Below are positions 29,492 through 43,628 of a DNA stretch of 43,628 nt, piece by piece. Within the stretch, counting starts at the first letter, position 1, and each line of letters starts with the position of its first letter. Position numbers and translations under genes: made by a program. Under the pieces are notes generated by a model. It did not search any database and was not told where the DNA came from. It was given only the letters and a program-made list of their open reading frames with translations. The stretch is from positions 1 through 43,628 of IMG/VR virus record IMGVR_UViG_3300028388_004827. One strand, given 5' to 3'. Source of the stretch: a virus.

Positions 29492-31723
29492 ATGGCGCGT
29501 CCGATTACACTTATAACAGATTCGTTTAAAATCTTCAAGGACAATGTTAACACAGTTTCTGTTAACGTTGGTGATCCAGATTTACTGACGACCACAACGA
29601 GAGCAGGACAGAGATCCGATTCTTCTGATATTGTAAGTGCAATCAATGAACTTGATTCCGATCTCCACGGATCTGGTGGTGGTGATGTAAAGAATGATCT
29701 CAACTATCTTTCTTATGCTATTAATACTGTCCGCGATAGTGGCATGGTTGGCGCAATTAACGCAATTGACGCACTGATTGGCGGCGATTCTGATGTTCTT
29801 CCTACTTCAGCAAAAACTCTCATTTTTGCGATTAAAGAATTAGACTCTGACCTTCATGGAGTTGGTGGTGGTAATGCAAAAGCAGACCTAACTACTTCTG
29901 CCAAAACAATTGTTGATGCAATCAATGAGATCGAGGCAGTATTCGATGCCTCTGCAACAGAAATCAACTCTCCCTCTTCTTTTGAAGCCTATGTTACCGG
30001 TGATTTCACGATAGATGCATCAGGAGACATTATCCTTGATGCAGATGGTGCTAATGTTACTTTGAAAGACGGCGGAGTAACTAGAATTGACCACCAGTTA
30101 GGATCAACCAACATCGTTGCAGTTACCGGAAATTATACATTAGATGTTTCTGGTAACATCGTTTTAGATGCCGACAATGGAAACATCGACATCAAAGATG
30201 GTGGCGTTACTCGATTTGCTTATGGTCTCGGTGCTACAAACACCCTTGATATCACCGGAAATATCGTAACCAATGTCTCTGGTAGTATTACTGACTCTGC
30301 CGGCACATCAATCACACAAAAGTCAGGAACCACGTTCTCACAAATTTCTGGTGGCAATTTCACCACTACGGTGACAGGAAACTACTCTGTTGATGCGTCT
30401 GGTAATGTCATTCTTGATGCTGATGCCGGAGACGTTCTTCTGAGAGATGGCGGATCTCAATACGGTTCGCTAACAAATAACAGCGGACATCTTGTAATTA
30501 AGACTGGTACCGATAGTGCATTGACGTTTGATGCAACAAATGCTACTTTCAACAAGACTCTCTATACTGACTCTGCACTGGATACGAATGCAAAGAGTGT
30601 TGCTGGCGGAATCAATGAACTAGAGACTGCAGCACGAGGCGCGAACACAGACTACTCACTGTCAACTACTGCGCAAAACTTTAGAGATGCAATCCGAGAG
30701 CATGAGACCGATATTGGTAACATGGTCTTTACTGGTCTTTCTGCGACAAATATCTCTGCTGCTCTCCGAGAACTTCGAGCAGAACTTGGTGACCACACTG
30801 CTCTTGTAACAGAAACCGACTCAAACGCTGTTGCTGCTATCAACGAACTTCATTCAGATATTGGTGACATTGCTCTTCTTAGTGTCAACGACTCAGAAGG
30901 TTCTGGCACTACTGCAACTAATCTTGTTACTGCACTAAACTTCTTAGATTATCGTCTTGACTCCGTCGAGACATTACTTGATCAAGCAGTAAAAACGACA
31001 TCAGATGTTCTGTTTAATTCTGTTGAAACGCCACTCGTTAAAAGAACTGGCAACTTTACACTCGATGTTTCTGCAGATATTATTCTTGATGCAGGCGGTG
31101 CTGATGTTCTTCTAAAAGATGACGGAACGCAATACGGCGCATTAACAAATACTTCCGGTAATCTGATTATTAAATCCGGAACAACGACTGCAGCAACCTT
31201 CAATGGCGCTAACGTCACTTTTGCAGGAACTATAGCACAGGGAACAAGTCTTAATACTTCAGCAAGCACTCTTGGTTCTGCTATAAACGAGATTCATGAC
31301 GAGTTAGACTCTGCTTCGGGAGAGATCTCTTCTCATGCTTCAAGACTCAATGATCTTGAGTCTGATAATAGTGTGCTGAATACTTTTGTTGAACCAACAC
31401 AATCACTCTCAACGAATGCGACAACTCTTGCGGATGCTGTTAATGAATTAGACAGCGACATTGGGAATCTTGATCTACTTGAGGATTCTGTTTACGCTGG
31501 TTCTAAGAATAATGTTGTGACAGCATTAAATGCTGCGGCAGCATTGTTGCTTCAACTGGATTCTAATAGTGGATTCCTGGACAATGCTATTGGTAGTCTA
31601 AATAATCTAGCAGCGTTCTTTGATAGCGCAGGAGCAACATCGAGCGTAGTGAATGCTCTGAATCATTTAGCTAGTAGAGTGGTTGATGTCTATGACGAGA
31701 CTGGCACTCTGCTAAACACCTAA
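29492..31723 (+). CDS. Repetitive beta-rich tail-fibre protein, 743 aa
   Basis: A fibrous virion protein. Two repeat types alternate. The first is Ala-Ile-Asn-Glu-Leu-[Asp/Glu]-x-Asp-[Leu/Ile], occurring about ten times as short helical connectors. The second is Gly-[Asn/Asp]-[Phe/Tyr]-[Thr/Ser]-x-Asp-[Ala/Val]-Ser-[Gly/Ala]-[Asp/Asn]-[Ile/Val]-[Ile/Val]-Leu-Asp-Ala with a following [Lys/Arg]-Asp-[Gly/Asp]-Gly, present four times (coded near 29998, 30128, 30378 and 31048). The second type gives parallel beta stacking, as in phage fibre shafts. The N-terminus Ala-Arg-Pro-Ile-Thr-Leu-Ile-Thr-Asp-Ser-Phe may be the attachment end. The gene directly abuts the coiled-coil gene, with only a weak ribosome site. 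Fibre family is clear; position on the virion is not. Confidence 0.78.
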   Translation: MARPITLITDSFKIFKDNVNTVSVNVGDPDLLTTTTRAGQRSDSSDIVSAINELDSDLHGSGGGDVKNDLNYLSYAINTVRDSGMVGAINAIDALIGGDSDVLPTSAKTLIFAIKELDSDLHGVGGGNAKADLTTSAKTIVDAINEIEAVFDASATEINSPSSFEAYVTGDFTIDASGDIILDADGANVTLKDGGVTRIDHQLGSTNIVAVTGNYTLDVSGNIVLDADNGNIDIKDGGVTRFAYGLGATNTLDITGNIVTNVSGSITDSAGTSITQKSGTTFSQISGGNFTTTVTGNYSVDASGNVILDADAGDVLLRDGGSQYGSLTNNSGHLVIKTGTDSALTFDATNATFNKTLYTDSALDTNAKSVAGGINELETAARGANTDYSLSTTAQNFRDAIREHETDIGNMVFTGLSATNISAALRELRAELGDHTALVTETDSNAVAAINELHSDIGDIALLSVNDSEGSGTTATNLVTALNFLDYRLDSVETLLDQAVKTTSDVLFNSVETPLVKRTGNFTLDVSADIILDAGGADVLLKDDGTQYGALTNTSGNLIIKSGTTTAATFNGANVTFAGTIAQGTSLNTSASTLGSAINEIHDELDSASGEISSHASRLNDLESDNSVLNTFVEPTQSLSTNATTLADAVNELDSDIGNLDLLEDSVYAGSKNNVVTALNAAAALLLQLDSNSGFLDNAIGSLNNLAAFFDSAGATSSVVNALNHLASRVVDVYDETGTLLNT

Positions 31724-31738
31724 CATTAGGATTGCAGT

Positions 31739-34258
31739 ATGTCAATTGACAAACCTCTAAAATTAGATGGGTCAGAAGGTAATTTAAAAAGATTTACTTC
31801 TACAGAAGAAAATTATCTTGCCTACAGAACAGGTTTAAACCTTGCATCCTCTGCTGGAACTGAAGTTGGAGACCTCACTCTAACCTCGTCTGGTAACACA
31901 AATATTGGTTCATTCGTAGACACATTTTTCAATCAGGCAGTTGGAACTCATCCTGGATCTTCAATCACGTCAGGGTCTACAACAACGACTCTTTATCAGA
32001 TCGCAGGAACTGCATCAGAAGCAGATTCGGATTTTAGAAAACCTGTTGGTTATCTAGATGCTTCACCAGAAGGCATCTATGAGATGGCAGATTCTGATTT
32101 TAATATTCTTGTCGACAGAATCAACGGAAGAATCGCAACATCAGATTATCCCGGAATTTTTAAGTTGGGTTCATCCTCTCCTGGCGGGGATTACAGCACA
32201 TTCATTTCTAATGTATTCAGTGACACTCAAACAGACGGAACTACTGTAAATTACAACATCTATCGCCGCGATACGATGTCTGCTCCAACAACGACTAAAT
32301 CTGTTGCTATAAAAAGAAGTGGGGGAAAAACTGGAGATTTCCAGGGTCTTCAACAGATGACCGATAACCAGATTTCCACTACATTTGGACAAAGAGCAAA
32401 AACAAGAAAGGCAGCTGCGGGCAATATTGGTTCTTATCAATTACGTTCTTCTTCACAAGGCGCACCAACCGATCCAGGGACTTGGAGATCAGTTGGTGTC
32501 GCAACTGACACAAAAAAAGACGCAATTAGTGTCAACTATACTAGAAATCGCAACTCGGCATATACTCGAGATAGAAGTAGCGCATATACTAGAACTTCAG
32601 TAAGAACAAGTTCCAGAAACTTTGCTGGAGATTACGTTCAAGAGTATACAAGAACGTTTTCGGGAAATTATACAAGAACTTTCATCGGTAATTACGCAGG
32701 AAACTATTCTCGCAATTTTACTCGTAGTAGAATAACAACTTCTACAAGAAACTTCACTCGAACTTCTACAAGAACGTTTACCGGCAACTACGCTCGAAAT
32801 TTCGCCGGAAATTACACCGGAAACTTCACTCGTACGTTTATCGGAAATTATTCTAGAAATTTCAATAGATCGTTTACCGGAAACTACACTCAAGAGTATT
32901 CGAGAGCATTTACTCGAAATAGATCTTCTTCTTATAATAGATCATTTACCGGAAACTACACTCAAGAGTATGCGAGAGCATTTACTAGAACACGAGTCAC
33001 AAACTTCACTCAAGAATATGCCGGTAACTTCACGGGAGATTATACTCGAGACAGAAGCAGCGCATATACTAGAGATTCTACCAGAACTTCTACTCGCACT
33101 TCTACCCGCACTTCTCTAGCTCCGGGTACAACAACGCTGCACACATCTTATAATCCATCATCAGCACCAAGTAACGGAGACACTGTTATTACAGTTCGTG
33201 ATGGAAACAATATTTTTAGTCATACGTCCAATCACGAAAACATTGACACCGTAGACGGCAGGGCAGGGAGTGTCGGTAGAAACGTAGTCGTGACTTTTCA
33301 ATTTGTCGATAATGATGGTAGTGGAGGTCTTGACTTTATTGTTATTAGACCTCAAGGCGCTGACATTACAATCAATAATATGGCAGTCGTTGAAACAGGA
33401 TTAAACATTTCTCCGTTTACCGGAACGATTGCTGCAGGGAGCATTGGATATGTAGAAGTCACTGGATTTCCAGATCCAGGCGATCGCGGACAGATTTCCT
33501 TTACATTCACATATCCTTCAGGTCTTACTCGACTTGATGTGTTTTATCGCGACGATCCTGATGATGACGATAGAACTACCGGTGTTCTTATGAACATGCC
33601 TAACAGATCATATACTGGAAACTTTGGCGGAAACTTTGCTGGTAACTTCACTGGTAACTATGCTAGAACCTTTGTTGGTAATTATACTCGCATAAGTACT
33701 AGAACTTCTACTCGAAATTTCGCTGGCAATTTTGTTGGAAACTATAGTCGAAACTTCACAAGAAACTTTACAAGAAATAGAACTTCTTCGTACAGTAGAA
33801 ATTTTGTTGGTAATTATTCTAGGAATTTCACTAGGAATTTCACAAGGACCAGAATTGAATCTTATTCAAGAAACTTTACTAGAGATAGAGTTTCTGCTTA
33901 TTCGAGAATTTTCGCTAGAACTCGAGTCTCAAACTATACAAGAAATCGCATAAGCACTTATGCCGGTAACTTCACTCAAGAGTACACTAGAACATTTATT
34001 GGAAATTACTCAAGAAATTTTGTTGGGAACTATACTAGAGATAGAGTTTCGGCATATACTAGAAATAGAACTTCGGCGTTCACCAGAGTTTTTGTAGGAA
34101 ATTATAGTCGAGACTTTGCGGGAAATTTCACAGGCAACTATTCTAGGATCTTTATCGGAAATTATTCTAGGACATTCACTGGAAATTATTCTGGTCTTAC
34201 GATTCAACCAACATCAAGCACAGTCCAAACATATACGCTGTATGTAAGATCTTCATAG
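31739..34258 (+). CDS. Tetrapeptide-repeat fibre-like protein A, 839 aa
   Basis: First of two tandem paralogues. Residues 1-266 are a unique head domain (Asp-Lys-Pro-Leu-Lys-Leu-Asp-Gly at the start, Phe-Phe-Asn-Gln-Ala-Val-Gly-Thr-His-Pro-Gly near 63, Ser-Asp-Tyr-Pro-Gly-Ile near 135, Gly-Ser-Tyr-Gln-Leu-Arg-Ser-Ser near 231). Residues 267-458 are 48 consecutive tetrapeptides. Residues 459-624 form a central beta domain with Arg-Asn-Val-Val-Val-Thr-Phe-Gln-Phe and Asp-Arg-Gly-Gln-Ile-Ser-Phe. Residues 625-820 are 49 more tetrapeptides, and the end is Thr-Tyr-Thr-Leu-Tyr-Val-Arg-Ser-Ser. The repeats are [Tyr/Phe/Ser/Arg]-[Thr/Ser/Ala/Val/Ile]-[Arg/Gly]-[Asn/Thr/Asp]. There is no signal or membrane segment. 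Position among fibre genes suggests a long, very basic virion filament. AGGA lies upstream of the ATG. Confidence 0.8.
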   Translation: MSIDKPLKLDGSEGNLKRFTSTEENYLAYRTGLNLASSAGTEVGDLTLTSSGNTNIGSFVDTFFNQAVGTHPGSSITSGSTTTTLYQIAGTASEADSDFRKPVGYLDASPEGIYEMADSDFNILVDRINGRIATSDYPGIFKLGSSSPGGDYSTFISNVFSDTQTDGTTVNYNIYRRDTMSAPTTTKSVAIKRSGGKTGDFQGLQQMTDNQISTTFGQRAKTRKAAAGNIGSYQLRSSSQGAPTDPGTWRSVGVATDTKKDAISVNYTRNRNSAYTRDRSSAYTRTSVRTSSRNFAGDYVQEYTRTFSGNYTRTFIGNYAGNYSRNFTRSRITTSTRNFTRTSTRTFTGNYARNFAGNYTGNFTRTFIGNYSRNFNRSFTGNYTQEYSRAFTRNRSSSYNRSFTGNYTQEYARAFTRTRVTNFTQEYAGNFTGDYTRDRSSAYTRDSTRTSTRTSTRTSLAPGTTTLHTSYNPSSAPSNGDTVITVRDGNNIFSHTSNHENIDTVDGRAGSVGRNVVVTFQFVDNDGSGGLDFIVIRPQGADITINNMAVVETGLNISPFTGTIAAGSIGYVEVTGFPDPGDRGQISFTFTYPSGLTRLDVFYRDDPDDDDRTTGVLMNMPNRSYTGNFGGNFAGNFTGNYARTFVGNYTRISTRTSTRNFAGNFVGNYSRNFTRNFTRNRTSSYSRNFVGNYSRNFTRNFTRTRIESYSRNFTRDRVSAYSRIFARTRVSNYTRNRISTYAGNFTQEYTRTFIGNYSRNFVGNYTRDRVSAYTRNRTSAFTRVFVGNYSRDFAGNFTGNYSRIFIGNYSRTFTGNYSGLTIQPTSSTVQTYTLYVRSS
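32537..33112 (+). repeat. Tetrapeptide (12-nt) repeat array 1, 48 units
   Basis: Codes for 48 tetrapeptides with no slip of register. Frequent units are Phe-Thr-Gly-Asn, Tyr-Ala-Gly-Asn, Tyr-Ser-Arg-Asn, Ser-Thr-Arg-Thr, Tyr-Thr-Gln-Glu and Arg-Ser-Ser-Ala. A longer block beginning near 32873 recurs 72 bases (six units) later with few changes. Confidence 0.92.
33611..34198 (+). repeat. Tetrapeptide (12-nt) repeat array 2, 49 units
   Basis: Codes for 49 tetrapeptides in perfect register at the C-terminal half of repeat protein A, with the same unit classes as array 1 and the aromatic residue at position 1 in most units. Confidence 0.92.
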
Positions 34259-34274
34259 TCCCCGAGGTTTATAA

Positions 34275-37103
34275 ATGACATCTAATGTACCATTAAAATT
34301 AGAAGGAACCCTCGGCGACCTTAAAGAGATGTCTTCTCTTGAGGAGAACTATATTGCCTACCAAGCAGGACTTCAACTTGCTGCTTCAACAGGAAATGAA
34401 GTTGGAGACATCACTCTTACTGCTGCTGGCAATCAGCTTGCCGGAAGTTTTACTGACACGTTCTTCAACCAACCAGTAGGAACCCATCCTGGAACTTCCA
34501 TAACTTCTGGTACAACGACAACCAACATATATCAAATCTCAGGAACTGCTGACGAGTCTGATTCTGATTTTAGAAGACCGATTGGATTTACAAGTCCAAA
34601 TAATATCTATGAGATGAATGACTCTGATCTCGATTCTCTTGTAACCAGAATTTCTTCTCGTATTGCAACTTCTGATTATCCTGGGATTCTGAAACTTGCT
34701 TCTTCTTCTCCGGGCGCTGACTATTCTTTGCTTGTCTCTAACATTTTCAGTGATACTCAAACTGACGGAACCACTGTAAATTATAACATTTATAAAAGAG
34801 AGACAATGTCAGCACCGACAACGGCAAGACCGATGTCGATTCGTCTCTCGAATGGAGACTCCGGAGACTTCGAAGGATTGCAAGAGATGACTGATCGTCA
34901 GATCAGTTATTCTTTTGGACAAAGAGTTAAAACGAAAAGAGCAGTTTCAGGTAATATTGGTTCTTATCAACTTAGATCTTCATCTCAAGGAACTCCTACC
35001 GATCCAGGGACTTGGAGATCTGTGGGAACCGCAACAAACACCAAGAAAACAACAGCAGATGTAAACTATACGAGAAATCGTGATTCTGCATACACTCGAG
35101 ATAGAGCATCGGTATTCAACAGAAATTCATTAAGAACAAGAATCTCAAATTATGCCGGTGAATTCACGGGAAACTATACGAGAAACTTCGTTGGAGATTA
35201 TACAAGAAATTTCATTGGCAACTATATCGGTGACTTTACCGGTAATTACGTAAGGAACAGATCCTCTGCTTACACTCGCGATAGAGTGACTAATTTTGCT
35301 GGCGATTTCACAGGCAACTATGCTAGAAACTTTGTTGGTAATTACAGTAGAGCATTTGTTGGTAACTACACTCGAGCATTTGCCGGAAATTTTGTTGGGA
35401 ACTATACGAGAAACAGCACAAGAACTTCGATAAGAACAAGAGTAAGTTCATATGCAAGAACTCGCGTTACAAACTTTGCTGGTAACTTTACTCGCATCAG
35501 CACAAGAACTTCCAATAGAAATTTCACTCGCATTAGCACAAGAACTTCGATAAGAACAAGAGTAAGTGCATATGCAAGAACTCGCGTTACAAACTTTGCT
35601 GGTAACTTTACTCGCATCAGCACAAGAACTTCTCTTAGAACTTTCCTAGGCAACTACTCTAGAAACTATGCCGGTAACTTCACAGGTAACTATGCAAGAA
35701 ACTTTGCTGGTAACTTCACTGGTAACTATGCAAGAAACTATGCCGGCAACTTTACTGGTAACTATTCAAGAAATTATGCTGGTAACTTCACAGGTAATTA
35801 TGCCAGAATCAGTACAAGAACTTCTACCAGAACTTCTACTCGTATTTCTACCCGAACTTCTCTTGCTGCTGGAACGACTACACTAGACACGTCATATAAC
35901 CCCTCAACTGCTCCCGGAAACGGTCTTTCTCACATTAGAATCTATGATGGGAGAAATACGTTTCAACAGTCGACGCCGGCTGATGATGATAGATATCAGG
36001 CGTTTTCGACCGCAGGAAGTGCCGGAAGAAATGTAGTAATCACATTTCAGTTTCAAGACATTGACTTTAGTGGCGGCGAAGACTTTATCGCGTTTCGTAC
36101 TTATGGTGCAGCAATTACAATTGGTGCTATGGCTAAAGTACAGACTGGTCTATTCATAAATACCTTTACTGGAACTATAGCCGCAAACACGCTTAGGCTC
36201 CTATCCGTAACAGGGAATCCCGATAGAGGAGACAGAGGGCAGATTTCATTTTGGTTCACCCTTCCAGCTGGTCTTACTAGATTGGACGTTTGGTATATCG
36301 ACGACCCTGACGATGACTCTAGAGATACTGGATTCGAGATATTTTTTCCGTTTAACACATATACTGGTAACTTCACCGGGAACTTTGTAGGCAATTTCGG
36401 CGGTAACTTCACAGGTAATTATGCCAGAATCAGCACAAGAACTTCCAATAGAGCTTTCACTCGAATCAGTACAAGAACTTCCAATAGAGCTTTCACTCGA
36501 ATCAGTACAAGAACTTCTGCTCGCAACTTCACTCGAATCAGTACAAGAACTTCCAACAGAGCTTTTGTAGGTAATTACGTTCAAGAATATGCTGGTAACT
36601 TCACGGGTAACTATGCAAGAAACTTTGCCGGTAACTTCGTAGGAAACTACTCTAGGAATTTCGTTGGGAACTATGGAGGCGACTTCATAGGTAATTATAC
36701 TCGAACATCAACAAGGTCTCGAATCAGTGCATACTCGCGAACAAGAAATTCAACATATACCAGAACAAGAACTTCTTCATACAGTCGAAACCGAGTCACA
36801 AACTTTGCCGGTAATTTCATTGGCAATTATTCGAGACTCTTTACGGGAGAATACACTCGAAACTCTACATCAGAATTTACTCGCGGCCGAACAAGTGCAT
36901 TTACCAGAACAAGGAATTCTGCATACACGAGAGTCTCCTCCAGAACCAGCACGAGAGATTTTGCAGGAAATTATACCGGAGACTTCGTTTCTAATTTCAC
37001 AGGAAACTACACCAGACAATTTATTGGTAATTATGCGGGAGAGACAATTCAATCGTCTTCTGAAGTAATTGAAACATACACTCTTTATGTAAGAGCAAGT
37101 TAA
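34275..37103 (+). CDS. Tetrapeptide-repeat fibre-like protein B, 942 aa
   Basis: Paralogue of the gene 16 bases upstream with the same plan. Residues 1-264 match the head domain of protein A over their whole length (for example Phe-Phe-Asn-Gln-Pro-Val-Gly-Thr-His-Pro-Gly and Ser-Asp-Tyr-Pro-Gly-Ile). Residues 265-528 are 66 tetrapeptides, 529-695 the central beta domain (Arg-Asn-Val-Val-Ile-Thr-Phe-Gln-Phe, Asp-Arg-Gly-Gln-Ile-Ser-Phe), and 696-923 another 57 tetrapeptides. The end is Thr-Tyr-Thr-Leu-Tyr-Val-Arg-Ala-Ser. It differs from A mainly in repeat number, which implies duplication followed by array growth or loss. The GAGG upstream supports the ATG at 34275; a one-base-off late promoter sequence there (TATAAATG) overlaps the start and is unlikely to serve this gene. 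Confidence 0.8.
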   Translation: MTSNVPLKLEGTLGDLKEMSSLEENYIAYQAGLQLAASTGNEVGDITLTAAGNQLAGSFTDTFFNQPVGTHPGTSITSGTTTTNIYQISGTADESDSDFRRPIGFTSPNNIYEMNDSDLDSLVTRISSRIATSDYPGILKLASSSPGADYSLLVSNIFSDTQTDGTTVNYNIYKRETMSAPTTARPMSIRLSNGDSGDFEGLQEMTDRQISYSFGQRVKTKRAVSGNIGSYQLRSSSQGTPTDPGTWRSVGTATNTKKTTADVNYTRNRDSAYTRDRASVFNRNSLRTRISNYAGEFTGNYTRNFVGDYTRNFIGNYIGDFTGNYVRNRSSAYTRDRVTNFAGDFTGNYARNFVGNYSRAFVGNYTRAFAGNFVGNYTRNSTRTSIRTRVSSYARTRVTNFAGNFTRISTRTSNRNFTRISTRTSIRTRVSAYARTRVTNFAGNFTRISTRTSLRTFLGNYSRNYAGNFTGNYARNFAGNFTGNYARNYAGNFTGNYSRNYAGNFTGNYARISTRTSTRTSTRISTRTSLAAGTTTLDTSYNPSTAPGNGLSHIRIYDGRNTFQQSTPADDDRYQAFSTAGSAGRNVVITFQFQDIDFSGGEDFIAFRTYGAAITIGAMAKVQTGLFINTFTGTIAANTLRLLSVTGNPDRGDRGQISFWFTLPAGLTRLDVWYIDDPDDDSRDTGFEIFFPFNTYTGNFTGNFVGNFGGNFTGNYARISTRTSNRAFTRISTRTSNRAFTRISTRTSARNFTRISTRTSNRAFVGNYVQEYAGNFTGNYARNFAGNFVGNYSRNFVGNYGGDFIGNYTRTSTRSRISAYSRTRNSTYTRTRTSSYSRNRVTNFAGNFIGNYSRLFTGEYTRNSTSEFTRGRTSAFTRTRNSAYTRVSSRTSTRDFAGNYTGDFVSNFTGNYTRQFIGNYAGETIQSSSEVIETYTLYVRAS
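35067..35858 (+). repeat. Tetrapeptide (12-nt) repeat array 3, 66 units
   Basis: Longest array, 66 units in unbroken register. Near-identical stretches of about 97 bases at 35415 and 35535 are offset by 120 bases (ten units), a sign of recent in-register duplication. The end is a run of alternating Phe-Thr-Gly-Asn, Tyr-Ala-Arg-Asn and Tyr-Ala-Gly-Asn units. Confidence 0.92.
36360..37043 (+). repeat. Tetrapeptide (12-nt) repeat array 4, 57 units
   Basis: 57 units in register. Between about 36430 and 36560 a 36-base block (three units, Phe-Thr-Arg-Ile / Ser-Thr-Arg-Thr / Ser-Asn-Arg-Ala) is repeated in tandem almost unchanged, for instance at 36453 and 36489. Confidence 0.92.
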
Positions 37104-37145
37104 TGCATATATACTGAACTCTTTAGAATTTTGGAGCAAACCCTT

Positions 37146-37619
37146 ATGAGTAGAAGAACATGGCTTGATAATGCTTTTTGGGAAACATCGGAAAAGCAGA
37201 TGATTAACTGCATCTTAGAACTTGAAGATGATGTTGGTCGAGTGACTCGACAGGTGATGAAAATCAACAGATACGATAAAGAAGGCAATGAAAACCCTGA
37301 CTTTATTGAAGTTGTTGATTCTGTGACCGAAGAAGTGGTAAACAAAAATACCGAAGATCGAAGAATCCGAAAAAAAGCAGAAGCAGAAGAGCAGAAACAA
37401 CGCGAAATTGAACATGCAAAGGCAAGGAAATTAGAAAAACTCTTTGAATATAAACTAGAGACTTTTGAAGTCGAAGAAATCAAAAATTCAAAAAACAGAC
37501 CTCTCAAATCTAAGCTTCGTCGCGCAAAGAGCAAAGTTGAAGTTGACCTATATGCTATGATGATTCTTGCCGAAGAACTGAAGAAAAAAGAAGAGGAAGA
37601 GGCAAATGGAAAAGAGTAA
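37146..37619 (+). CDS. Charged coiled-coil protein, 157 aa
   Basis: Function unknown. Residues 1-35 hold a conserved-looking Arg-Arg-Thr-Trp-Leu-Asp-Asn-Ala-Phe-Trp-Glu-Thr-Ser segment. The middle (about 75-110) is a long, highly charged Lys/Glu/Arg-rich helix, and the C-terminus ends in Lys-Lys-Lys-Glu-Glu-Glu-Glu. It resembles small assembly or chaperone-like proteins encoded next to fibre genes, but I see no direct match. The frame extends to a TTG at 37131, but the ATG at 37146 has GGAG at 37133-37136 at good spacing. It overlaps the glycosyltransferase gene by 14 bases. Confidence 0.75.
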   Translation: MSRRTWLDNAFWETSEKQMINCILELEDDVGRVTRQVMKINRYDKEGNENPDFIEVVDSVTEEVVNKNTEDRRIRKKAEAEEQKQREIEHAKARKLEKLFEYKLETFEVEEIKNSKNRPLKSKLRRAKSKVEVDLYAMMILAEELKKKEEEEANGKE

Positions 37620-38331
37620 AGGATATCTTGTAGTTGCTTCCAAAAGGATTAATTTCTACAAGTATGCGCTCAACTTAATCGATTCTATTCGTGACTTCAA
37701 CGAAGACGCAAAAATTTGCCTTGTTACCGAGGATCATTTCCTAGATCAAAAAGGAAGAGATTTAGCAGACGACATTATCATCTGCGACGATCACTATCGA
37801 GCAAAACTCTGGGGAATGGCAAAAAGTCCATATGATTTGACAATGTATATTGATGCTGACATGGAATGCGAGCACGAAGATATTGCAAATGTCTTTGATG
37901 AACTTGGTGATAATGACATCATGTTTAGCGCGTTGACCGATGATCGCTCTTATGTTTATGCAGAAAGAGATTTTGATACGCCCGAAGGAAAAACAAAGTT
38001 TACTCTCTGTGGTGGAGTCTGTCTTTATGACATGACCAAACCTATTGTTCGTTCTTTTATGAGCGACTGGTGGGAACTAACTCGAAGACAGATGAATGAT
38101 GAGTGGTGGCCAAGAGGATATTCGGATAGTCTAAAATCCTGGGATCAATTTTCTCTTTGGTGGTTGACCGAAAAAGAACCAAAGTATCATGACCTCAAGG
38201 TTGAGATTTTTAAAGATGATTTAAGATGGAATTATTATAATGCTTTCAATTGGGCAATCACTCGTCCAGAAAAAGAAGTTGTCTTGAGGCATTATTCTTG
38301 CGGTCTTGATAAGGACGGTGTTTTGGTATGA
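37606..38331 (+). CDS. Putative GT-A glycosyltransferase, 241 aa
   Basis: Probably transfers a sugar from a nucleotide-sugar donor. The N-terminal Tyr-Leu-Val-Val-Ala-Ser, then Tyr-Ala-Leu-Asn-Leu-Ile-Asp-Ser-Ile, is the nucleotide-binding strand and helix. Lys-Leu-Trp-Gly-Met-Ala-Lys-Ser-Pro-Tyr-Asp precedes Met-Tyr-Ile-Asp83-Ala-Asp85, the metal-binding DxD motif. Thr-Leu-Cys-Gly-Gly-Val-Cys-Leu-Tyr looks like the acceptor-side 'G-G' loop, and Asp-Gln-Phe-Ser-Leu is a typical late motif. The C-terminus has Leu-Arg-His-Tyr-Ser-Cys-Gly. The layout is like GT8-type enzymes. It overlaps the genes on both sides (14 bases, then ATGA), so it is made together with the coiled-coil and oxygenase-like proteins, directly after the Asn/Thr/Ser/Tyr-rich repeat proteins. 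The acceptor is unknown. Confidence 0.8.
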   Translation: MEKSKGYLVVASKRINFYKYALNLIDSIRDFNEDAKICLVTEDHFLDQKGRDLADDIIICDDHYRAKLWGMAKSPYDLTMYIDADMECEHEDIANVFDELGDNDIMFSALTDDRSYVYAERDFDTPEGKTKFTLCGGVCLYDMTKPIVRSFMSDWWELTRRQMNDEWWPRGYSDSLKSWDQFSLWWLTEKEPKYHDLKVEIFKDDLRWNYYNAFNWAITRPEKEVVLRHYSCGLDKDGVLV

Positions 38332-39017
38332 CAGGAAATATGATTCACATTCCAGTAAAAAATAAAGAATTGATCTCAATACTGGATCAATATCCTGCTT
38401 TAATTCAACTTGAAGATTTTGAAAAAAATCTTCACTTGACAGCAAGAGAGCACCAAAGAAAAAGACATTATTATGTCGGTGAAAATCACATGAACGAAAT
38501 CGTTGGAATGGGAACGAATCATGATGGGTTTCCAGATCAATTGGTCGGATATGATTTAAAAACAAATTCCTTAGAGCATGTTTACTTTGAAGGCGAGGTT
38601 GACTCTCAGTGGAGATTAGATTTTACAAAAAAACTCGGGTATCTTAACACCGAAATGATGTCCTTCCTTGGCACTAAAAATAATGCATTGACCTGCATTT
38701 ATCCTCCTGGCGGATTTATTTCTTGGCACAACAATGCAAACGCTGCCGCATATAATTTGATTTTCACCTGGAGTGAAAACGGCAATGGTTGGTTTAAATA
38801 CATTGATCCCGATACAAAACGTGTTGTTACAGTAAAAGACGAACCGGGTTGGCAGTGTAAAGCAGCGTATTTTGGACATTATGGTGAACCAGATCGCCTA
38901 ATGTATCATGCTGCATCTACTGATTGTTGGAGATGCACTGTTTCTTATACCTTTAGCATTGCCGAAGCATCAAGAGAATTTAGAGAAGAAGTCCTTGAAG
39001 ATATCTCGTCAGAGTAG
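38328..39017 (+). CDS. Putative 2OG-Fe(II) oxygenase-like protein, 229 aa
   Basis: Resembles the iron- and 2-oxoglutarate-dependent hydroxylase-like proteins often encoded by T4-like marine phages. The core has Ile-Tyr-Pro-Pro-Gly-Gly-Phe-Ile-Ser-Trp-His134-Asn-Asn136 and then Tyr-Asn-Leu-Ile-Phe-Thr-Trp-Ser. It continues with Gly-Asn-Gly-Trp-Phe-Lys-Tyr, Val-Lys-Asp-Glu-Pro-Gly-Trp-Gln-Cys-Lys and Met-Tyr-His194-Ala…Arg202, followed by Val-Ser-Tyr-Thr-Phe. His134, His194 and Arg202 fit the iron and 2-oxoglutarate sites, but the usual Asp of the HxD motif is Asn136, so activity is uncertain. The start overlaps the glycosyltransferase stop (ATGA). Substrate unknown; a prolyl, asparaginyl or lysyl residue on a virion protein is one possibility. 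Confidence 0.65.
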   Translation: MTGNMIHIPVKNKELISILDQYPALIQLEDFEKNLHLTAREHQRKRHYYVGENHMNEIVGMGTNHDGFPDQLVGYDLKTNSLEHVYFEGEVDSQWRLDFTKKLGYLNTEMMSFLGTKNNALTCIYPPGGFISWHNNANAAAYNLIFTWSENGNGWFKYIDPDTKRVVTVKDEPGWQCKAAYFGHYGEPDRLMYHAASTDCWRCTVSYTFSIAEASREFREEVLEDISSE

Positions 39018-39061: not shown

Positions 39062-39418
39062 ATGGCAGACTACGAAGAAATTACTATTGATCAAGGAGCA
39101 GATGTTGCAATCGAACTGCACCTTGTTGAACAGGATGGATCTAAAAAAGACCTGACCGATTATTCTGCAAATGCGAAAATGAAGAGAAACTATAACAGCG
39201 ACAGCGCGGACACAGTAGATTTTACAACTATTATTCCTTCTCCTTCTTCTGATGGTGTTGTTGTCATTTCTCTGACGAACGAGCAGACTGATGCCCTAAA
39301 TACAAGGGGAAGATATGTTTATGACGTTGAGATTTCTTTCGATGATAGCGACGGGAACACTATCATTGAGAGAGTCCTTGAAGGAAAAATAAAAGTAACA
39401 CCTTCGGTTACAAGGTAA
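39062..39418 (+). CDS. Small beta-rich virion protein, 118 aa
   Basis: A compact beta-sandwich-like protein: Ile-Thr-Ile-Asp-Gln-Gly-Ala-Asp-Val-Ala-Ile-Glu-Leu, Asp-Leu-Thr-Asp-Tyr-Ser-Ala-x-Ala-Lys-Met-Lys-Arg (about residues 30-42) and Gly-Arg-Tyr-Val-Tyr-Asp-Val-Glu-Ile. This layout is like the BppU/Ig-like N-terminal domains that attach receptor-binding parts to baseplates in other phages, and similar small proteins sit near fibre genes in marine T4-like phages. The exact function is not known. AGGA precedes the ATG, and a late promoter lies just upstream; the next gene starts nine bases after its stop. Confidence 0.72.
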   Translation: MADYEEITIDQGADVAIELHLVEQDGSKKDLTDYSANAKMKRNYNSDSADTVDFTTIIPSPSSDGVVVISLTNEQTDALNTRGRYVYDVEISFDDSDGNTIIERVLEGKIKVTPSVTR

Positions 39419-42299: not shown

Positions 42300-43628
42300 A
42301 TTGTCGGTGATGTCGAGGTATTTGACTCATCGGGCAGTCTACAAGCAAGTTCTCTAGGAAGCATCTCCAGTACAGATGTGACCGAGGGAACCAATCTCTA
42401 TTATACCACTGTTCGTGCAGATTCTGATTTTGATGTTCGTCTGACTACTAAAAGTACTGATGATTTATCAGAAGGTAGCAATCTTTACTATACTACAGTT
42501 AGAGCAGATTCTGATTTTGATACGAGACTTACCACAAAATCAACAGATGATCTATCAGAAGGTTCTAATCTTTACTATACCACAACACGTGCTGACAGTG
42601 ACATCGCAGACTATCTAACAGGCAGTATCAGCACGGGTAACATCACCACGACAGGATATATTCGCGGACCGAGTACGTTTACGATTGACCCTGCGGTTCA
42701 CGGCGACTCTTCTGGTACTCTTGTCATTCTCGGTAATCTTCAAGTTGATGGGACTACCACTACAATTAATTCAACGACCGTTGAGGTTGATGATAAGAAT
42801 CTAACTCTTGCCAGCGGAGCAGTCAATGCTGCTTCAGCAGATGGCGCTGGTATTACGATTGATGGTGCTTCTGCTACGCTGACTTATAACAGCACTCCGG
42901 ATGCCTGGTCGTTTAATAAGAATGTTGGGATCGGGACGGATTCGCCTACAACCAGATTAAACATTGCAAATACAGTTGGTATATCTGGATCGGGGAATGA
43001 TACTTACGGGCAGATTGATTTAGTCAACACTGAGACAGGCGTTAGCGGAGATGAAATAGGACCATTTATTACCTTTAGAGGTAGACGGGGAGCAACAGAC
43101 AGTGTGATAGCTGCTTATGGGTCTATTGGGGCTGTAAACACAGGCACCTCTGGTAACTCTGAAGGTGCGATAGTCTTCCGTGTTAAAAATGCAACAGGTG
43201 CTTCTCAAATCTTAGTTGAGCAAATGAGAATCACAACTGGCGGCAACGTCGGGATTGGTACGGATAGTCCTAGCACCATTTTAAGTGTTCAAGGCGGGTC
43301 AGCTAACGGCATTGAATTAGATCAAGACGGAGATTTATCCACGGATAGCAACCGTTTGTTTTTTACAACAAGCGGCGGATCAAATGCGATTTATAGTAGT
43401 AGTGGCGCGCTTCGCTTTACGACGGGTGCTACAGCCGGTACTTCTAGTGGTACAGAAGTCATGCGCATCGCCTCCTCGGGCAACATCGGGATAGGAACAG
43501 ATGATCCAATAAGAAAACTGACAGTATATGGCGGAAGTAGCGGAGAAACAGGAACAGTTGACTCAAATAGTTTGTTCTTTATTGAAAATAATGCTAATGC
43601 GTTTATCGAAACAAGAGTTCCTAACACG
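42300..43628 (+). CDS. Tail-fibre protein, N-terminal part, runs off the window
   Basis: The frame stays open from 42261 to the window end. No ATG, GTG or TTG opens it before clear fibre sequence (Gly-Leu-Ile-Val-Gly-Asp-Val-Glu-Val-Phe-Asp-Ser-Ser-Gly). I set the start provisionally at ATT 42300, about 34 bases after the predicted transcript start; codons at 42267-42299 (…Arg-Val-Lys-Lys-Gly-Leu) may also belong to it. It then has three 29-residue repeats (Leu-Tyr-Tyr-Thr-Thr-x-Arg-Ala-Asp-Ser-Asp), the Gly-Thr-Thr-Thr-Thr-Ile-Asn-Ser-Thr module shared with the fibre at 39652, and three Gly-[Ile]-Gly-Thr-Asp motifs (near 42928, 43250 and 43486) typical of the shaft before a C-terminal chaperone or tip domain outside the window. 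It is at least 443 residues long. Confidence 0.75.
   Translation, partial: MVGDVEVFDSSGSLQASSLGSISSTDVTEGTNLYYTTVRADSDFDVRLTTKSTDDLSEGSNLYYTTVRADSDFDTRLTTKSTDDLSEGSNLYYTTTRADSDIADYLTGSISTGNITTTGYIRGPSTFTIDPAVHGDSSGTLVILGNLQVDGTTTTINSTTVEVDDKNLTLASGAVNAASADGAGITIDGASATLTYNSTPDAWSFNKNVGIGTDSPTTRLNIANTVGISGSGNDTYGQIDLVNTETGVSGDEIGPFITFRGRRGATDSVIAAYGSIGAVNTGTSGNSEGAIVFRVKNATGASQILVEQMRITTGGNVGIGTDSPSTILSVQGGSANGIELDQDGDLSTDSNRLFFTTSGGSNAIYSSSGALRFTTGATAGTSSGTEVMRIASSGNIGIGTDDPIRKLTVYGGSSGETGTVDSNSLFFIENNANAFIETRVPNT
42372..42602 (+). repeat. 87-bp tandem repeats in fibre gene (about 2.7 copies)
   Basis: Units begin at 42396, 42483 and 42570 and code for 29 residues each (Leu-Tyr-Tyr-Thr-Thr…Ser-Thr-Asp-Asp-Leu-Ser-Glu-Gly). 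The protein copies are almost identical, with changes mainly at third codon positions. They form the first shaft segment of the fibre. Confidence 0.88.

Follow-up and report, generated by a model that had tools for sequence, protein, structure and literature searches.

We establish here, for two adjacent genes of a marine phage, A and B, that they encode strict tetrapeptide repeats arranged in matched arms, with antiparallel residue complementarity between the arms and a defined register at their base. A and B are likely to be paralogous tail-fibre (adhesin) proteins of out-and-back topology, whose arms are zipped together in antiparallel fashion and whose tip lies at the far end. From this we infer a giant antiparallel β-ribbon stalk bearing an adhesin-like tip and held together by a sequence-coded zipper.

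The A/B locus and its tetrapeptide arrays

The window, i.e., the whole stretch of DNA that was analysed, is a 43.6-kb record of a marine phage whose tail and baseplate genes are those of a T4-like myovirus. Upstream of A and B are genes for the baseplate and one that is tail-fibre-like; downstream is a four-gene cassette. Its products are, in order, a 160-aa protein, a GT-A glycosyltransferase-like (GT) protein, an oxygenase-like protein and a protein homologous to L-shaped tail fibre assembly proteins. The structural tail-gene context originally proposed for them is borne out by the baseplate and tail genes and the fibre-assembly homologue nearby, and the locus is of the baseplate/fibre type with an assembly factor that is expected of tail fibres. 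A 743-aa tail-fibre-like protein encoded upstream (29492-31723) gives tail fibre PHROG matches and a weak Gp5_C octapeptide match (E 0.0024), and an 87-bp tandem repeat (2.2 copies) is found at 42390-42584, 3' of the last fibre-like gene. Both A and B consist of a head (~262 aa), array 1, a tip domain, array 2 and a C-terminal strand; the features are as follows (all on the + strand; arm and tip are named by the proposed topology).

31739-34258, +: gene A, array tail protein of 839 aa (ORF and arrays)
31739-32524, +: A head (base) domain, anchor Trp249; 68% identical to the B head, whose pLDDT is mostly >90
32537-33112, +: A array 1, outgoing arm, 48 units, residues 267-458 (unit count)
33113-33598, +: A tip domain, non-array; centre at 0.501 of the Trp-to-TYTLY distance; 58% identical to the B tip
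33599-34186, +: A array 2, return arm, 49 units, residues 621-816 (unit count and register test)
34187-34255, +: A C-terminal strand, TYTLY motif (T831), conserved across the family
34275-37103, +: gene B, array tail protein of 942 aa (ORF and arrays)
34275-35066, +: B head (base) domain, anchor Trp247; AlphaFold pLDDT mostly >90; 53% identical to the C48C1 protein
35067-35858, +: B array 1, outgoing arm, 66 units, residues 265-528 (unit count)
35415-35632, +: near-perfect 120-bp (10-unit) duplication in B array 1; 98% match, register +40 residues beyond it
35859-36359, +: B tip domain, predicted β-sandwich; pLDDT 52-83, weak Foldseek match to FmlH/FimH lectin domains (E 9e-4)
36360-37043, +: B array 2, return arm, 57 units, residues 696-923 (unit count)
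37044-37100, +: B C-terminal strand, TYTLY motif (T934); strand predicted at 908-940, with a terminal pLDDT of 85-96
37131-37619, +: 160-aa cassette protein, adjoining the GT gene in 80 of 80 GT loci
37606-38331, +: GT-A glycosyltransferase-like protein, invariant DxD (motif and profile matches)
38328-39017, +: tentative 2OG-Fe(II) oxygenase-like protein, invariant HxN...H...R (motifs)
39062-39418, +: L-shaped tail fibre assembly protein homologue (phrog_3304, E 4e-17; phrog_1084, E 1e-21; in 77 of 80 GT loci)

The original prediction counted four arrays of 48, 49, 66 and 57 units, 220 in all, running in register without slip; these counts and their coordinates are confirmed, with the reservation that the first unit of the 49-unit array of A is degenerate (PNRS). 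The units have the form Y/F/S/R-x-R/G/S-x, with Y or F confined to position 1 (67 to 80% of the units per array versus 0% at positions 2 to 4), and the consecutive runs in 300 shuffled versions of protein B reach at most 8 units. The proposed linkage between positions also holds, with the main classes being F with G (57), Y with R (56), S with R (33) and R with S/T (27); the mutual information between positions 1 and 3 is 0.785 bits versus 0.061 shuffled (z 43), and that between positions 3 and 4 is 0.676 bits (z 23). The arrays are highly basic, as had been noted (net charge +23 to +36 per array), and hold a single Pro, no Cys and no Trp across the 220 units; His is likewise absent from the position tallies of these units. 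At the DNA level, they are made up of imperfect 12/24/36-bp repeats, save for one 98% identical 120-bp duplication, and because the DNA repeats are imperfect, the regularity resides in the protein and is not simple DNA slippage.

Searches with A and B against Pfam, PHROGs and PDB sequences retrieved no convincing match, in agreement with the earlier view that the arrays belong to no described repeat family; a viral fold library search gave no meaningful match, and a literature search for such repeats found nothing relevant. Assignment to the pentapeptide repeat proteins was rejected, given the four-residue register throughout and the lack of a Pfam match. A helical periodicity of 2.77 units, which is strong when all arrays are included, is not significant after related arrays are collapsed; in the largest cluster of related arrays, lag correlations that fall close to multiples of 2.77 units are likewise not significant after clustering.

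Antiparallel complementarity between the arms

In the AlphaFold monomer of B, the head is confident and the tip moderately so, and long strands are predicted at residues 247-277, leaving the head, and 908-940, at the C terminus, which suggested a return of the chain. The arrays themselves are at a pLDDT of ~27, both in B and in its short, 576-aa relative L030. The L030 model has the same two end strands, with residue sums that match the same register (+4 to +6, see below) as in B, and is not fully independent of the covariation analysis, as AlphaFold also reads covariation.

A pattern scan of IMG/VR recovered relatives in at least 120 stretches, with at least 129 array ORFs in at least 91 sources, and 78 non-redundant relatives formed the sample for arm pairing. 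The centre of the tip, as a fraction of the distance from the anchor Trp to TYTLY, is at 0.501 in A, 0.499 in L062, 0.501 in L207, 0.499 in L051 and 0.498 in L158, even as this distance ranges from 588 to 1815 among these five; 32 of 69 proteins fall within 0.47-0.53. Arm lengths are correspondingly close (A 209/206, L062 301/298, L208 293/290, L112 233/230, L011 287/284) and equal when expressed in units. In B (281/238), the outgoing arm is in excess by exactly the 40 residues of the duplication. When the arm lengths of 29 proteins are simply correlated, no relation is seen (r = -0.14), because multidomain paralogues were included; the case for matched arms is built instead on the midpoint, the exact arm matches and the covariation. 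Against the model, in some relatives, e.g., paralogues in L021, L063, L123, L134, L136 and L137, the tip is off the midpoint and there are several insertions.

Array 1 and array 2 covary in antiparallel fashion only near i + j = W + T + 4 to 6, where W is the Trp and T the TYTLY motif, with z values of 19.5 and 26.2 that are inflated by related sequences, a bias addressed by the leave-cluster-out and swap tests and only partly by the ortholog-compensation test; beyond ~6 residues on either side of this register, the covariation is near zero. The residue pairs across the arms are highly selective. At position 1, we counted Y-Y 343, F-R 136 and R-F 148 times, and R-R, S-S and R-S 0 times; at position 3, the counts were R-G 235, G-R 228, R-S 129, S-R 155 and R-R 24. 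Pairing rules learned with the cluster in question left out choose the W + T + 4 to 6 register in 211 of 351 windows (60%; chance, ~2%), and in the swap control a protein's own C-terminal arm gives this register in 60.8% of cases, versus 5.9% for a C-terminal arm from another cluster. The signal holds up to 500 residues from the head. The predicted structure covers the register at the base, and further out the pairing is read solely from covariation.

Both window proteins follow these rules. In A, which was held out, 83% of the position-3 rungs have exactly one Arg, whereas 30 other registers give a mean of 49% and a maximum of 62%. In B, 86% of the position-3 rungs obey the code up to residue W+174, before the duplication; beyond it, the best register is shifted by +40 residues, with weaker evidence (18 rungs, 72%). 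As this shift corresponds exactly to the 120-nt insert, the duplication acts as a natural experiment: a recent event for which the return arm does not yet have a counterpart. As a point against the model, only 17% of the changes at position 3 in ortholog pairs have a compensating change exactly opposite, versus 0.4% in the same direction, and a few other offsets are also raised in this test.

Proposed fold and competing explanations

We propose that the head domain would anchor the protein at the base, from which array 1 would run outward as a single very long β-strand to a β-sandwich domain at the far tip; array 2 would then lead back to the base alongside array 1 in antiparallel orientation, with the TYTLY strand at the C terminus closing onto the head. 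Each tetrapeptide would form a rung of the ribbon, with the position 1 and 3 side chains of both arms facing each other. The position-3 code would allow one Arg per rung, facing Gly or Ser, and under the position-1 code Tyr would face Tyr, or Phe would face Arg or Ser, Arg/Ser against Arg/Ser being nearly missing. Such complementarity of volume and charge would set the register in an otherwise monotonous sequence. Each chain might contribute an extended two-stranded ribbon, and a needle of ~65-75 nm here, at an assumed 0.33 nm per residue, could arise by the packing of several such chains, their number most likely being three by analogy with T4 gp37. The adhesin-like tip may bind the host surface, folding may be aided by the fibre-assembly homologue, and the stalk may be modified by the glycosyltransferase-like and oxygenase-like enzymes encoded nearby.

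The covariation would be alike for pairing within a chain and for pairing between chains of an oligomer. An arrangement in which the arms are antiparallel but paired between different chains, as in a domain-swapped or interlaced oligomer, is a less probable but serious alternative: it would yield the same covariation, phage fibres are usually trimers, and in T4 gp37 G921 touches F970 of another subunit (PMC6957217). The AlphaFold monomers, which put both end strands on one head, point away from it without being decisive. The original prediction had instead suggested that the arrays could be a β-solenoid or a trimeric filament. That each array alone folds as a narrow β-solenoid or trimeric filament of self-stacking tetrapeptide units now appears improbable; it is compatible with the strict period, the linked positions and the lag correlations at 2, 3, 6 and 11 units, but leaves the antiparallel covariation between arrays, the midpoint tips and the matched arm lengths unexplained. 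Moreover, the AlphaFold models contain no coil, the 2.77-unit periodicity loses significance once related arrays are collapsed, and neither a confident coil model nor self-stacking at a fixed lag was found for the arrays.

We consider a state resembling the TLP-4 glycofibril, in which the arrays would be extended polypeptide with a glycan coat produced by the GT-like and oxygenase-like enzymes encoded next to them, just as improbable. A solved tetrapeptide-repeat chain is known (9ikm), and all 80 GT loci carry the cassette, 73 of them with an array gene directly upstream; however, there is only one Pro in the 220 units, the oxygenase assignment comes from motifs only, and the side-chain complementarity at positions 1 and 3 requires paired arms. 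A disordered basic spacer or electrostatic adhesive, with which the net charge and the low pLDDT would agree, is the most improbable of all, as disorder does not give register-specific covariation over hundreds of residues.

For the zipped out-and-back fibre, a stronger formulation is that it constitutes a sequence-coded protein duplex, in which return-strand units complement the opposite outgoing units in a small alphabet over up to ~500 residues; we regard the case for and against this as evenly balanced. If true, register and fibre length would be written in the sequence, akin to nucleic acid pairing, which for viral fibres would amount to a new principle of folding. More generally, if the way in which a repetitive protein finds its register can be read as a code, the sequence would suffice to predict topology, fibre length and the position of the tip, and to locate the likely receptor-binding tip in phages with unknown hosts. 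This is of relevance to a large family, mostly from uncultured viruses, whose fibre genes lack annotation; a self-complementary β-ribbon is also a possible material.

Relatives, the downstream cassette and known systems

Across the family, it is the head and the TYTLY strand at the C terminus that are conserved. The segment separating the arrays had been described as a conserved β domain: the arrays do flank it, but its conservation is limited to A, B and the near relative L065, and elsewhere it is the variable part. The sole annotated phage relative of the head is CDS0201 of C48C1 (OQ984149, Kyanoviridae), a hypothetical protein of 3348 aa. It shares with A and B a homologous head (53% identity with B), tetrapeptide arrays, the C-terminal motif and the same downstream cassette, but is set apart by its >450 units and the insertion of several domains, and its function is not annotated; the 3348-aa protein (L001, 11992-22035) has about six inserted domains, possibly several tips. 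No relatives were found when species genomes of bacteria and archaea were scanned with the alignment of the family. The first arrays of a 2266-aa relative (L010, 1572-8369) consist of 12-residue QVPEQYVGAYTG units (three tetrapeptides), and its later arrays of YARNFAGQ-type units. In many long relatives (L024, L058, L061, L074, L078, L092, L116 and others), the first array has exactly 128 units, hinting at a fixed length or common descent. A divergent set (L113, L056, L053, L114, L055 and L115) has Arg-poor [YF]-x-G-x arrays and the same cassette, with a C-terminal LW(V/I)(K/R)TA-type end instead of LYVRTA.

To assess the cassette, we took the best 80 of 480 GT relatives, which are the closest ones rather than an unbiased sample of all 480. 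In these loci, for which the GT was the sole criterion, the genes for the 160-aa protein and the oxygenase-like protein are kept in all 80, an array gene is directly upstream in 73 (2 of the other 7 end too early to tell), and the tail fibre assembly homologue is present in 77. The DxD motif of the GT-A-like protein is invariant in 35 sequences, of which 22 match Pfam GT2 at E ≤ 1 (best, 4e-4), with GT8 at best 9e-4 and the window copy below the cut-off. The protein encoded by 38328-39017 is tentatively oxygenase-like by its motifs: the HxD/E...H facial triad of 2OG-Fe(II) oxygenases was not found, as all 39 aligned sequences have HxN instead of HxD, the later H and R are in place, and hhalign was not significant. 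Together, these proteins form a conserved set of putative enzymes, which may modify phage fibres.

The original prediction knew of no described fold with a strict four-residue repeat of this sort, but the PDB does contain a strict tetrapeptide repeat, TLP-4 (9ikm, SXTA repeats), which we take to be the freshwater glycofibril of the CryoSeek II paper, whose title is cited in PMC12689565. It shares the strict four-residue repeat with A and B but differs in composition, being without their aromatic/Arg code. T4 gp5 has a repeat every eight residues that forms a triple-stranded β-helix, and a structural protein of S-RIM2 carries (V/L)TGN tetrapeptides; such VTGN repeats match gp5 weakly in a PDB search. 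Like the A/B units, the gp5 octapeptides and the cyanophage VTGN-type repeats have a Gly-Asn ending a short strand, but they lack the aromatic/Arg complementarity.

The closest parallel is the C-terminal needle (D10-D11) of T4 gp37, an elongated, six-stranded antiparallel structure of out-and-back strands with a receptor-binding tip (PMC7291167), whose base domain D10 comprises residues 811-881 and 1010-1026, i.e., is completed by C-terminal residues (PMC6957217). The needle resembles A and B in its returning chain and in the completion of the base by C-terminal residues, the predicted B strands 247-277 and 908-940 sharing the +4 to +6 register; Gly opposite Phe in the gp37 stem is a further likeness. 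In contrast, gp37 has no strict tetrapeptide code, the arms of the A/B family reach ~200-800 residues, and the His-coordinated iron sites of the needle have no equivalent in the His-free A/B arrays. No sequence or fold match between A/B and gp37 was found, and a PDB fold search with L030, which has the same head, gave no match at E<1 and did not recover the gp12/gp10/gp11 collar fold. By analogy, A and B might work like the T4 gp37 needle, while membership in that family is not supported; they are probably a very long, unusually coded version of the phage tail-fibre needle.
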